A DNA stretch of 64,000 nt, from the NCBI GenBank assembly GCA_900155405.1, contig LT700188.1, forward strand, positions 372,001 through 436,000, in the 5' to 3' direction. Source of the stretch: Negativicoccus massiliensis. GTDB taxonomy: Bacteria > Bacillota > Negativicutes > Veillonellales > Negativicoccaceae. The position numbers were made by a program, and so were the translations under genes. The stretch's first letter is position 1, and the number at the start of each line of letters is the position of its first letter. This document shows positions 27,419 to 30,077 of this stretch, in pieces. The notes below the pieces were generated by a model. The model searched no databases. It was not told the DNA's origin and was given only the letters and a program-made list of their open reading frames with translations.

Positions 27419-27742
27419 TCAGGCCTGACTGACTACTCGAATTTGTTGGGTGCCAAAAGCATCGGCAATATCTTTACGAAACTTTCCTTCCAACATTGTC
27501 CGATTTATTTCCCGACGAGTAATCAGAAGTAATCTTTCCCCGTCATAGTTAATACGCAACAATGAATCAATGTATGTTTCGAAATCTTTCTTTTCCATTT
27601 TCGCTTGCAATTCTTCTAAGGCTTTTGCAATCGGTCCCTCCTGATACTCGGCGCGCTCCGTTACAGGTACAAAATGCACTTCATAAAGAGAGTCTGAATA
27701 CCCTTTATCCGTAGTAGAATGTCGTTCTAAATCAATCGCCAT
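27419..27742 (-). CDS. Stand-alone DnaA domain I-like protein
   Basis: This 107-residue protein resembles the N-terminal domain I of DnaA and nothing else. From about residue 38 it reads ALEELQAKMEKKDFETYIDS, then GERLLLITRREI, LEGKFRKDIADAFG and IRVV. This follows the DnaA pattern AL-x-x-I-x-x-L-x-KPSFETW ... LESRY-x-x-LI ... IKFV. The ATPase and DNA-binding domains are absent. Domain I of DnaA binds itself, the helicase and regulators, so a free copy could modulate initiation; that is inference. The start is the ATG at 27742, with AAGGAGG 7 bases upstream. The open frame to 27913 is AT-rich and not protein-like. Confidence 0.75.
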   Translation of the reverse strand: MAIDLERHSTTDKGYSDSLYEVHFVPVTERAEYQEGPIAKALEELQAKMEKKDFETYIDSLLRINYDGERLLLITRREINRTMLEGKFRKDIADAFGTQQIRVVSQA

Positions 27743-27884
27743 ATTTTTCCTCCTTATGCTTATGCCTATGCGCGCATTATACCATATATTTATTTTAATA
27801 AAGAGACCTTGTCGATAAAACAATTCAATGTAAAGTGTTTTTGAGAACATATGTTTATATCCATTGTATAATTTTCTAAAAGTG

Positions 27885-27913
27885 TTGACAACTATTTTTA
27901 GAGAGATTATCAT
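27885..27913 (+). promoter_or_regulatory. Promoter of the exported cbiK-like gene
   Basis: A perfect TTGACA (27885-27890), a 17-base spacer and TATCAT (27908-27913) form a strong sigma-A promoter. Transcription would start near 27920, giving a leader of about 120 bases that contains the hairpin/pseudoknot element. Confidence 0.8.
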
Positions 27914-27943
27914 GATGTTAACTAAAGATTATGCGGTGCACTC

Positions 27944-27998
27944 AAAACTGGTGAGCGGGGAACATCAGTTTTTGTAGGAGGTGAAGGTGCCTCCCCGT
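27944..27998 (+). promoter_or_regulatory. Candidate structured RNA leader (hairpin plus pseudoknot)
   Basis: In the leader, AAAACTGGTG (27944-27953) pairs with CATCAGTTTT (27963-27972): ten base pairs with one G-U. Its 9-base loop contains GCGGGGA (27955-27961), which can pair with TCCCCGT (27992-27998): seven base pairs with one G-U, forming an H-type pseudoknot. A competing hairpin, GGAGG (27977-27981) with CCTCC (27990-27994), uses the same downstream strand. Mutually exclusive pairings of this kind are typical of riboswitches. The ribosome site of the gene (28027-28034) lies about 30 bases beyond. I do not recognise a known class. Confidence 0.5.
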
Positions 27999-28041
27999 GA
28001 AAATTTTATTTTTAATTATCAACAACAAGGGAGCTATTAAA

Positions 28042-29085
28042 ATGAACAAACAATGGAAACGTTTTATGGCGGCTACATTTTGTGCTGCGATCCTGACAGG
28101 ATTTGGCAGTTTCGGCGTAAACGCAGCATATGAATTGAGCGATGAAGTAAAACGGCCGACCCCCGCCTTGCTGACTGCTACTGAAATCGGAGTTAAAGTA
28201 CGCGAAAACACAATCATGCAGCAGATGCAAAATAAAGATGCGATTTTAATTACCAGCTTCGGTACTACTTTTAAAGATACTCGCGCCAAAACAATTGACG
28301 CCGTAGTAAATAAAATCAAACAAGCCTTTCCGCACAAAGAAGTTCGTGTCGCATTCACGAGCCATATCATTATTGACCGCATCATGAAACATGAAGGTAT
28401 TCAGTATTACACCCCTGAACAAGCCTTTGATAATTTGAAAAAAGACGGCTACAATCGTATTGCTATCGTTCCTTTCAATATCATTCCGGGAATCGAATAT
28501 GACTACAGTGTAGAAGCAGCTAATCTCCAGCAGAAAAACTTCAAAAAACTCTCTGTAGCAACACCGATTATGTACTATATGGGTCAGGAAGAACAGCCGG
28601 ATCAAATCAATGATTTTATAAATGCTCTTAAATATCAATTACCGCACCATATGCAGAAAGATGAAGCTGTACTTTTGATGGCACACGGAACTCCGCATCC
28701 GGGTAATGCGTTCTACGCCGTTATTCAGGACCGCTTTGAAATGATGGATATGAACAACGTTTACGTTTATTCTGTAGAAGGCCGTCCTAACCTCGATGAC
28801 GTAATTCCGCATCTCCACGCCAATAAAATTCAAAAAGTGACCTTGATGCCGATCATGATGGTTGCCGGTGATCATGCCAATAATGATATGGCAGGCGACG
28901 AAGAAGATAGCCACAAAATGATCTTGCAAGGAGAAGGTTTCAAAGTAAATACTTACATTCGCGGCTTGGGCGAAAACCCGAAAATCCAGGACATGTTTGT
29001 GGAACGCGCCCGCGAAGCGGTAGAAGCATTAGACACTAAAGAAGCAAAGGTTCCCTACACGCCGATGCATTCCAAAAAACATTGA
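28042..29085 (+). CDS. Exported CbiK-type chelatase (CbiKP-like)
   Basis: This 347-residue CbiK homologue carries a clear signal peptide: a basic start, the hydrophobic core FMAATFCAAILTGFGSFG, and a VNA-A cleavage site near residue 28. The mature part has AILITSFGTTFKDTR, IIPGIEY, the catalytic histidine in LLMAHGTPHPG, and the canonical second site MMVAGDHANNDMAGDEEDS. Periplasmic CbiK proteins are known in Desulfovibrio, where a role in metal or heme handling outside the cytoplasm was proposed. The ATG has AAGGGAGC upstream; a GTG at 27997 would lie inside the leader structure. The next gene on this strand is a BtuF-like lipoprotein. Confidence 0.92.
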   Translation: MNKQWKRFMAATFCAAILTGFGSFGVNAAYELSDEVKRPTPALLTATEIGVKVRENTIMQQMQNKDAILITSFGTTFKDTRAKTIDAVVNKIKQAFPHKEVRVAFTSHIIIDRIMKHEGIQYYTPEQAFDNLKKDGYNRIAIVPFNIIPGIEYDYSVEAANLQQKNFKKLSVATPIMYYMGQEEQPDQINDFINALKYQLPHHMQKDEAVLLMAHGTPHPGNAFYAVIQDRFEMMDMNNVYVYSVEGRPNLDDVIPHLHANKIQKVTLMPIMMVAGDHANNDMAGDEEDSHKMILQGEGFKVNTYIRGLGENPKIQDMFVERAREAVEALDTKEAKVPYTPMHSKKH

Positions 29086-29088
29086 GTA

Positions 29089-29097
29089 TGATATAAT
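29089..29097 (+). promoter_or_regulatory. Possible extended -10 promoter for the btuF-like gene
   Basis: TGATATAAT is a perfect extended -10 (TG-N-TATAAT) just after the chelatase stop codon, with no clear -35. It overlaps the left edge of the hairpin at 29098. Confidence 0.4.
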
Positions 29098-29125
29098 AAA
29101 TGCGCCCTCATTGTAGGGCGCATTT
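29098..29125 (+). terminator. Terminator between the exported chelatase and btuF-like genes
   Basis: AAATGCGCCC and GGGCGCATTT form a 10-bp stem with an 8-base loop, followed by ATTATT. It could partly or fully end the chelatase transcript before the lipoprotein gene. Confidence 0.7.
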
Positions 29126-29141
29126 ATTATTGGAGGTAAAT

Positions 29142-30077
29142 ATGAAATCACTGGTTAAAGTTTTTGCCTTATTCTGTTGCTTATTACTTTGTATCGGCTG
29201 TAAATCCACATCGACAGATGCCACACAAAACGGTACGCAGACCTATCAGTTTAAGGATCAATCCATTACTCTGCAAGAGCATCCCAAACGAGTTATTACT
29301 CTTTCCGATTCTTTATTAAATATGTATTATGCAGTCGGCGGCACTGTTGTTGCGAGACCGACTTCAAATAATGAATTACCGGAGGCCGCACAAAGCCTGC
29401 CTGAAATCGGTCATGTTTCCCACATCAGTTCGGAGGCCCTGATTGCCAACAAACCGGACTTGGTGCTTGGGCTTTCACAACAACACAAAAAATTGGAATC
29501 GATTCTCGAAGCTAATCACATACCCTACCTGCTTCTCAATTACGAAGGAATTGATGACAATGTTCCGCTTTTAGAATTTTTAGGAAATGTAGCGGGAAAC
29601 AAAGATAAGGCAAAATCGGTTATTAACGACTATGAAAAACGTATGCGCGAAGTAGTGGCTCTTGGTCATCAACAAAAGCCGCTGCGCGTTGCCATTCTTC
29701 GTGCCACCGGCAAAGATGTGACTGCGGAAACGCCTCTTTCTATTACCGCATCCATGACCAACAAGCTCGGCATGCAAAATGTACTTGCCGAAAAAACTCT
29801 TCCGGCAGATGCGAAAACGGTTCCTTACAGCTTGGAGGTACTTACGGCCGATAATCCCGATGTTATCTTTATTGCTACCATGGGTAAAATGGAGCAAATT
29901 ACAGCCCGTATGGCGGAAGAAATGACCAATAACCCCGCTTGGAATCAGTTGCAAGCGGTACAAGAAGGTAAGGTATTTTATTTGCCCAGCGAATTGTATC
30001 TTCTCAATCCCGGCATCAAAACCCCTGATGCAATGCGAAGCTTACTGGAAAAAGCATATCCGGAGTTGAAAAAATAA
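29142..30077 (+). CDS. Corrinoid/iron-complex ABC transporter binding lipoprotein (BtuF-like)
   Basis: The 311-residue protein is a periplasmic binding protein of the BtuF/FhuD class. It opens with a lipoprotein signal peptide ending in the lipobox LCIGC (cysteine about residue 18). The binding domain has HPKRVITLSDSLLNMYYAVG, KPDLVLGLSQQHKKL and NPDVIFIATMG. The single long linker helix between lobes fits class III binding proteins. I chose the ATG at 29142, with GGAGG 6 bases before it. The permease and ATPase that would complete the importer are convergently encoded just downstream. Substrate could be cobalamin, a precursor, heme or an iron chelate; the setting favours a corrinoid. Confidence 0.88.
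   Translation: MKSLVKVFALFCCLLLCIGCKSTSTDATQNGTQTYQFKDQSITLQEHPKRVITLSDSLLNMYYAVGGTVVARPTSNNELPEAAQSLPEIGHVSHISSEALIANKPDLVLGLSQQHKKLESILEANHIPYLLLNYEGIDDNVPLLEFLGNVAGNKDKAKSVINDYEKRMREVVALGHQQKPLRVAILRATGKDVTAETPLSITASMTNKLGMQNVLAEKTLPADAKTVPYSLEVLTADNPDVIFIATMGKMEQITARMAEEMTNNPAWNQLQAVQEGKVFYLPSELYLLNPGIKTPDAMRSLLEKAYPELKK

Follow-up and report, generated by a model that had tools for sequence, protein, structure and literature searches.

A putative family-specific pseudoknot in the leader of the cbiK chelatase gene of Negativicoccus massiliensis

The leader of a chelatase gene (cbiK) in Negativicoccus massiliensis probably carries a real gene-control element, a compact pseudoknot, since the knotted shape is kept in four species despite changed letters. 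We put a probability of about 0.6 on a lineage-specific cis-regulatory pseudoknot on the cbiK transcript that would act on translation through competing pairings. The element is real and probably functional, is of a known general kind, and would constitute a new, narrow family of leader RNAs. Control of translation, its direction, and a corrinoid, heme or cobalt signal are what we infer beyond this. Judged from sequence, the distribution is narrow, covering four genomes of one family within the genomes searched.

Results

The leader and its gene

The stretch of DNA analyzed (64,000 nucleotides, hereafter the window) belongs to a genome of 1.36 Mb in a single contig, denoted G000. G001 is a genome of the same genus, and G002 and G003 are other genomes of the same family; these four are all the family members among the 61 genomes of the order that were searched. 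The leader opens with a promoter, TTGACA-17-TATCAT (27885-27913, plus strand), which matches the consensus at 11 of 12 positions and was the best of eight sites in the region scanned. By eye, TTGACA-17-TAT(C/T)AT precedes the cbiK leader in G001, G002, and G003 as well. The predicted transcription start lies near 27920, about 24 nt ahead of a hairpin stem (S1), in agreement with the original prediction that a strong promoter starts transcription some 25 bases before a 10-bp hairpin; each element of that prediction lies where it was placed. That prediction had also paired the hairpin loop with a segment 30 bases downstream, and we recovered this complementarity between GCGGGGA (27955-27961) and TCCCCGT (27992-27998), which comprises six strong pairs and one G.U pair.

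Together, the two helices delineate an H-type pseudoknot at 27944-27997. All of its parts lie on the plus strand. S1 (10 bp) joins AAAACTGGTG (27944-27953) to CATCAGTTTT (27963-27972), and S2 (6 bp) joins the loop strand CGGGGA (27956-27961) to TCCCCG (27992-27997), 30 nt downstream of the loop. L1 and L2 measure 2 and 1 nt, and L3 (19 nt, 27973-27991) holds AGGAGGTGAAG-GTG, a Shine-Dalgarno-like sequence with a start-like codon. The predicted fold therefore has the two crossing helices, the short L1, and an L3 able to span S1 that define the H-type. The pseudoknot sits just past the promoter and roughly 25-45 nt ahead of the start codon.

The gene (28042-29085, plus strand) encodes a 347-aa chelatase of the CbiK family (Pfam CbiK, PF06180, E 9.5e-84), which bears out the earlier assignment to metal or tetrapyrrole metabolism. 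The protein scores 220.6 bits against NCBIfam SiroCoChCbiK, below the cut-off of 400. Its sequence relatives in the PDB are the anaerobic cobalt chelatase 1qgo, the 'putative chelatase' 2xvx, and the heme-binding FetB 9b86. By eye, the N-terminal stretch looks like a signal peptide, and the chelatase is probably exported. Its own Shine-Dalgarno sequence, AAGGGAG (28027-28033, plus strand), precedes the ATG at 28042. Downstream of cbiK lies a gene for a periplasmic binding protein (29142-30077, plus strand; PF01497) of a metal, heme or B12-type importer, whose best NCBIfam match, IsdE, falls below the cut-off of that model. Exported CbiK proteins may serve either to insert cobalt or to remove iron from heme. 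In PMC13227078, IhtB of P. gingivalis is termed a putative ferrochelatase/reverse ferrochelatase. A small divergent ORF adjoins the leader on its other side (27419-27742, minus strand); by eye, its start is probably an internal ATG near 27742, and no Pfam match was obtained when it was scanned as 27419-27913.

Conservation and compensatory change within the family

The leader seems to be under selection at the RNA level, because identity between G000 and G001 is high over the leader and eases where the pseudoknot ends. The two genomes share 108 of 115 positions over 27885-27999: 27/29 in the promoter, 28/30 in the 5' segment between the -10 element and S1 (27914-27943, plus strand), 28/30 in 27944-27973 (S1, the loop, and one extra base), and 25/26 in 27974-27999 (the remaining L3, the S2 strand, and two extra bases). 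Toward the start codon identity drops to 24/29 and then to 9/13 in the stretch from the Shine-Dalgarno sequence to the ATG. Four-fold sites of cbiK are identical in 92 of 125 cases, and above the promoter the figures are 75 of 106 aligned columns in the adjacent stretch and 62 of 85 farther up. Note that identity is also high at 27542-27700 (138/159), within the divergent ORF. The 5' segment is unrecognizable by eye in G002 and G003.

All 10 pairs of S1 are kept in G000, G001, and G002, with six of the pairs changed on both sides, a result matched by 1 of 500 pair shuffles. Over S1 and S2 together, 48 of 48 cells are paired in these three genomes, and sliding by one to three columns reduces this to 43-54%. 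G002 keeps GGGGAA, GGAGGTGAAG-RTG, and TCCC, and its S1 arms differ yet pair perfectly. Changes in S2 within the three-row alignment are one-sided (C-G to U.G and G-C to G.U). S2 pairs 6/6 in all four genomes, the first pair reading C-G, C-G, U.G, and A-U from G000 to G003, so that its only both-sided change comes from G003.

The pseudoknot of G003 was spotted by hand first and then by a descriptor loosened to one mismatch; the strict descriptor and both covariance models described below (R1 and R2) missed this leader. In G003, 12 of 13 positions of S1 are paired, a stem that its nested fold also shows, and S2 is AGGGGA/UCUCCU with 6/6 pairs. L1 has 2 nt throughout and L3 has 19, 19, 20, and 18 nt from G000 to G003, within a family-wide geometry of 10-13 positions for S1, 6 bp for S2, 2 nt for L1, 0-2 nt for L2, and 18-20 nt for L3. 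Compared with the window, L3 is identical in G001, differs by one base over GGAGGTGAAGRTG in G002, and is without the GGAGGTGAAG motif in G003; the motif is thus common to three of the four genomes. S1 is represented by three unrelated sequences among the four family leaders, and since two of the genomes are close relatives, the covariation amounts to three independent sequences. Consequently, the conservation and covariation of paired segments in orthologous leaders on which the original prediction depended is found within the family, in four genomes. As read from the alignments, the leader has one feature by which riboswitches are recognized, a structure conserved before orthologous genes with compensatory changes.

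Shuffled sequences and nested folds

None of 1000 dinucleotide shuffles of the window leader gave an equally good hairpin-loop pseudoknot. We applied a second descriptor, which seeks a hairpin of at least 8 pairs (one mismatch allowed) whose 7-11-nt loop can pair with a segment 10-30 nt further on, to 67 leaders from cbiK homologues, including 55 of the same order. It scored G000, G001, G002, and G003 at 47.75, 47.0, 45.0, and 44.5, values reached by 0, 0, 0, and 2 of 1000 of their own shuffles, respectively, and 39 of the 67 leaders gave no candidate. Among the 63 leaders from outside the family only L046 attains 44.5, with a tail that lies 98 nt from the gene. Shuffles alone are not decisive, because five leaders from outside the family (L035, L036, L041, L046, and L054) each beat all 100 of their own shuffles, the four others scoring below the family leaders. 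Furthermore, a scan of both strands of the window in 1596 segments of 160 nt revealed two other places that reach 44.5 besides the leader.

The nested fold of the window leader is no stabler than that of shuffled sequences (z = 0.00). The minimum-energy nested fold of 27914-28060 is without S1, its 5'-terminal GAUGUU being paired with AACAUC instead. The centroid fold of that segment contains both S1 and the competing GGAGG/CCTCC hairpin described below. When the four family leaders were folded in a further run, the minimum-energy structure contained S1 for G000, G002, and G003 but not for G001.

Searches for relatives

The original prediction found no resemblance to the cobalamin, NiCo, fluoride, or preQ1 classes, and the Rfam searches agree with this. 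No match at gathering scores, RF00174 included, occurs in the window. A search of the leader alone with Rfam 15 at E <= 10 returned three irrelevant matches below gathering scores (a CRISPR repeat and two snoRNA families), and at E up to 5 none lies inside the leaders of G000-G003.

A covariance model built from G000 and G001 only (R1) finds the G002 leader among eight loci (17.8 bits, E 0.00095); over whole genomes it gives no match in G002 at E <= 1. Across the 61 genomes of the order, 23 have an R1 match at E <= 1, strong in G000 and G001 and followed by G021 (E 4.0e-5), where the match spans model positions 4-36, mostly the S1 hairpin. The window's genome holds a single copy of the pseudoknot element by this model. 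A further model (R2) has matches at E <= 0.1 in 65 of 380 genomes of the class, its three seed sequences standing at E <= 5e-20 and the next best at 1.2e-5. The nine next-best loci were inspected and six of them aligned, each lacking either the GGGGAA loop or the GGAGGTGAAG motif. In L122, GGGGAA and CTCCC are present and the GGAGGTGAAG motif is absent. A strict pattern is found in 3 of the 61 genomes of the order. An exact-pattern scan of genome contigs, which may leave out the window's own genome or near relatives, yielded 10 stretches, of which only L065, from the same family, is a cbiK leader; the other nine were judged from their sequences to be chance occurrences.

Leaders of another family of the order, f2, with a GGGAA hairpin loop (L010, L017, L030, and L034) are not claimed as relatives. 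R2 found nothing in them. With the first descriptor, 38, 6, and 0 of 150 shuffles reached the scores of L010, L030, and L034, and L017 gave no candidate; with the second, 8 and 6 of 100 reached those of L010 and L030, and L017 and L034 gave none. Aligned with one another, L030, L034, and L017 have a conserved stretch distinct from the window element. Just upstream of cbiK these three share CAAGTACYTGGGAAA (on the reverse strand in L034 and L017), flanked by the hairpin arms GTACAAG/CTTGTAC in L034 and CATACAAG/CTTGTATG in L030, and these leaders are possibly another leader RNA on cbiK. In two genomes of one other family of the class, L108 and L109 are near-identical leaders upstream of the cbiK homologue, with GGAGAGGTGTCGCCTACAGGCGAAAGG and later a GCAGGAG...CTCCTGC hairpin. 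The open-access literature searched, including PMC6429828 and PMC7689651, yielded no description of the pseudoknot leader.

Cobalamin riboswitches at orthologous genes

Of the 55 leaders collected from the order, 50 were searched against Rfam, and RF00174 lies upstream of cbiK in 17 of these 50 (2/10, 15/20, and 0/20 by batch). This marks cbiK as a usual target of control by leader RNAs. RF00174 is absent from the cbiK leader in all four genomes of the family, and the cbiK of this family therefore has a leader RNA different from that of its riboswitch-controlled homologues. G002 and G003 have a cobalamin riboswitch near cbiK on the opposite strand, before a divergent gene, which is of the methylmalonyl-CoA mutase kind in G002 and looks alike in G003. 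In the window's genome the only RF00174 match at E <= 0.001 (142989-143158) lies 257 kb away. A run of genes on the minus strand, at about 30-36 kb of the window, looks from its translations like anaerobic cobalamin synthesis, and no cobalamin riboswitch at gathering score occurs in the whole 64 kb.

Competing pairings and a possible mechanism

A second hairpin (27977-27994, plus strand) competes with the pseudoknot. It pairs GGAGG (27977-27981) with CCTCC (27990-27994), has 14 of 15 helix cells paired in three genomes, and has energies of -9.5, -9.5, and -5.5 kcal/mol in G000, G001, and G002. This pairing had been proposed to hide a ribosome-site-like sequence. The pairing is possible, but the GGAGG is not the Shine-Dalgarno sequence of cbiK itself. 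We add a third partner: CTCCC (27991-27995) could also pair with the GGGAG of the cbiK Shine-Dalgarno sequence. Three purine-rich segments are thus available to the pyrimidine strand CCUCCCC (27990-27996): the S1 loop, the GGAGG of L3, and the GGGAG of the cbiK site. The energies in G000 are of like size (-10.1 for the S2 duplex, -9.5 for the second hairpin, and -8.7 kcal/mol for the tail with the Shine-Dalgarno sequence), although they exclude pseudoknot penalties and are not strictly comparable; such closeness would be what a switch needs. Pairing of the tail with the Shine-Dalgarno sequence is uneven across G000-G003 (-8.7, -5.7, -4.3, and -7.0 kcal/mol), and for this reason the output step is the weakly supported part of the scheme.

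No terminator-like site was found on the plus strand of 27700-29200; the two that were found lie on the minus strand, inside cbiK. The leader is without the terminator hairpin and U-run of a transcription attenuator, and control of translation or of stability is therefore favored. We propose that the S2 3' strand CCUCCCC, which resembles an anti-Shine-Dalgarno sequence, would pair with one partner at a time, and it is because this strand takes only one partner at once that a switch on translation is suggested. A stabilized pseudoknot would withdraw the strand from the cbiK Shine-Dalgarno sequence and yield more chelatase, the direction being a guess; alternatively, the output could be an altered use of the Shine-Dalgarno-like site in L3. 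The signal would probably be corrinoid, heme or cobalt status, a guess at the ligand made because cbiK in sister families often lies under cobalamin riboswitches.

Discussion

Comparison with known systems

The leader resembles the cobalamin riboswitch RF00174 in being a leader RNA before homologous cbiK genes (17 of the 50 members of the order). Unlike it, the pseudoknot of the window spans about 55 nt, as opposed to the 189 positions of that model, and gives no match to it. The preQ1-I, preQ1-II, preQ1-III, SAM-II, SAM-V, fluoride, and guanidine-III riboswitches are built around a compact pseudoknot in a short leader, with strand competition near the ribosome site. The compact pseudoknot in a short leader is shared with these classes. 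However, none of them appears among the matches of the leader up to E = 10, and the Shine-Dalgarno sequence of the window's cbiK lies about 30 nt outside the pseudoknot. The translational operators of rpsO (S15) and T4 gene 32 are likewise pseudoknots in mRNA leaders, where they affect ribosome loading and are bound by the gene product. A CbiK chelatase is not known to have such a role, and the one encoded here is probably exported.

Two further motifs described in PMC8632094 are comparable. The odc1 uORF element, an alpha-proteobacterial motif that makes an 11-aa peptide, also has a stem-loop and a pseudoknot within an mRNA leader that contains an upstream start, but the upstream ORF of the window is not conserved. 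The pnuC motif may likewise form a pseudoknot that involves a purine-rich ribosome site. In that motif the pairing partner is the gene's own ribosome site, whereas here the Shine-Dalgarno-like sequence of L3 and, less surely, the cbiK Shine-Dalgarno sequence would compete for one strand.

Alternative explanations

A narrower form of our preferred explanation holds that the element is a genuine riboswitch of a new class, in which the GGGGAA loop and L3 (GGAGGUGAAGRUG) bind a corrinoid, heme or porphyrin, or cobalt and set the translation of cbiK. We regard this as a serious though tentative possibility. Unpaired sequence conserved in three genomes is what a binding pocket would produce, the pseudoknot occurs in four genomes, cbiK stands behind cobalamin riboswitches in sister families, and the neighboring periplasmic protein resembles heme, iron or B12 carriers. 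However, the conserved L3 motif doubles as a near-perfect Shine-Dalgarno sequence with a start-like codon, it is missing in G003, and the element is single-copy in the window's genome. Slightly less probable is that a small riboswitch of a new class, restricted to a single family of the order, senses corrinoid, heme or cobalt through its H-type pseudoknot and has replaced the cobalamin riboswitch before the chelatase. The original prediction of a small riboswitch or metal-sensing RNA is thus partly supported, by a conserved pseudoknot with compensating changes in four related genomes. Riboswitch is a plausible label, though strictly a hypothesis.

A plain hairpin or pseudoknot at the 5' end that senses nothing and merely stabilizes the mRNA or fixes the level of translation would suit the nearness to the predicted 5' end, the strong stem, and the narrow distribution; we consider it unlikely, as it does not itself need the loop-tail pairing or an L3 motif that is near-identical in three genomes. 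Rather less likely is a translated upstream ORF, with ribosomes loading at AGGAGGTGA-GTG/ATG, gated by the pseudoknot or the second hairpin and coupled to cbiK. A GTG or ATG does follow GGAGGTGAAG directly at good spacing in three genomes, and the 17-codon frame of the window, GTG...TAA (27987-28040, plus strand), ends 1 nt short of the cbiK ATG. Nevertheless, this possible ORF is not conserved: it shares the cbiK frame in G001, has 47 codons in G002 and there overlaps cbiK by 89 nt in a different frame, and lacks its motif in G003, and its first 12 codons show, by eye, one synonymous and three non-synonymous changes between G000 and G001. The conserved upstream reading frame of leader-peptide control is thus not found in these genomes. 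Because the frames behind the GTG/ATG disagree, we do not read the L3 motif as a leader peptide; we take it to be a competitor for the strand, or possibly a ribosome standby site. Note also that gene callers may start cbiK of G001 18 codons early, as the GTG that follows GGAGGTGAAG there continues in frame into the gene. S1 could in principle act at the DNA level, as an operator dyad bound by a metal-dependent repressor past the promoter, being an inverted repeat close to the start site of a metal-related gene, but its arms vary between genomes with complementarity kept, which is the opposite of the pattern of a protein-binding site and makes this very improbable. A separate operator may lie within 27885-27943. 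We hold chance complementarity to be the least probable of all. The ordinary nested fold, the two other places in the window at the descriptor score, and the unrelated leaders that beat their own shuffles would be in keeping with it; against it, all four family leaders have the pseudoknot in a similar place with similar loop lengths, and the conservation between G000 and G001 covers just the leader stretch.

Significance for the family

If a cis-regulatory pseudoknot on the cbiK transcript is confirmed, sister families would control cbiK through unrelated leader RNAs, some with a cobalamin riboswitch and another with a pseudoknot, which would offer a natural experiment on the replacement of RNA control. 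The guess at the ligand is narrow enough for a direct test, given how many orthologues are marked by cobalamin riboswitches, and the element would then reveal the signal that governs exported CbiK proteins.
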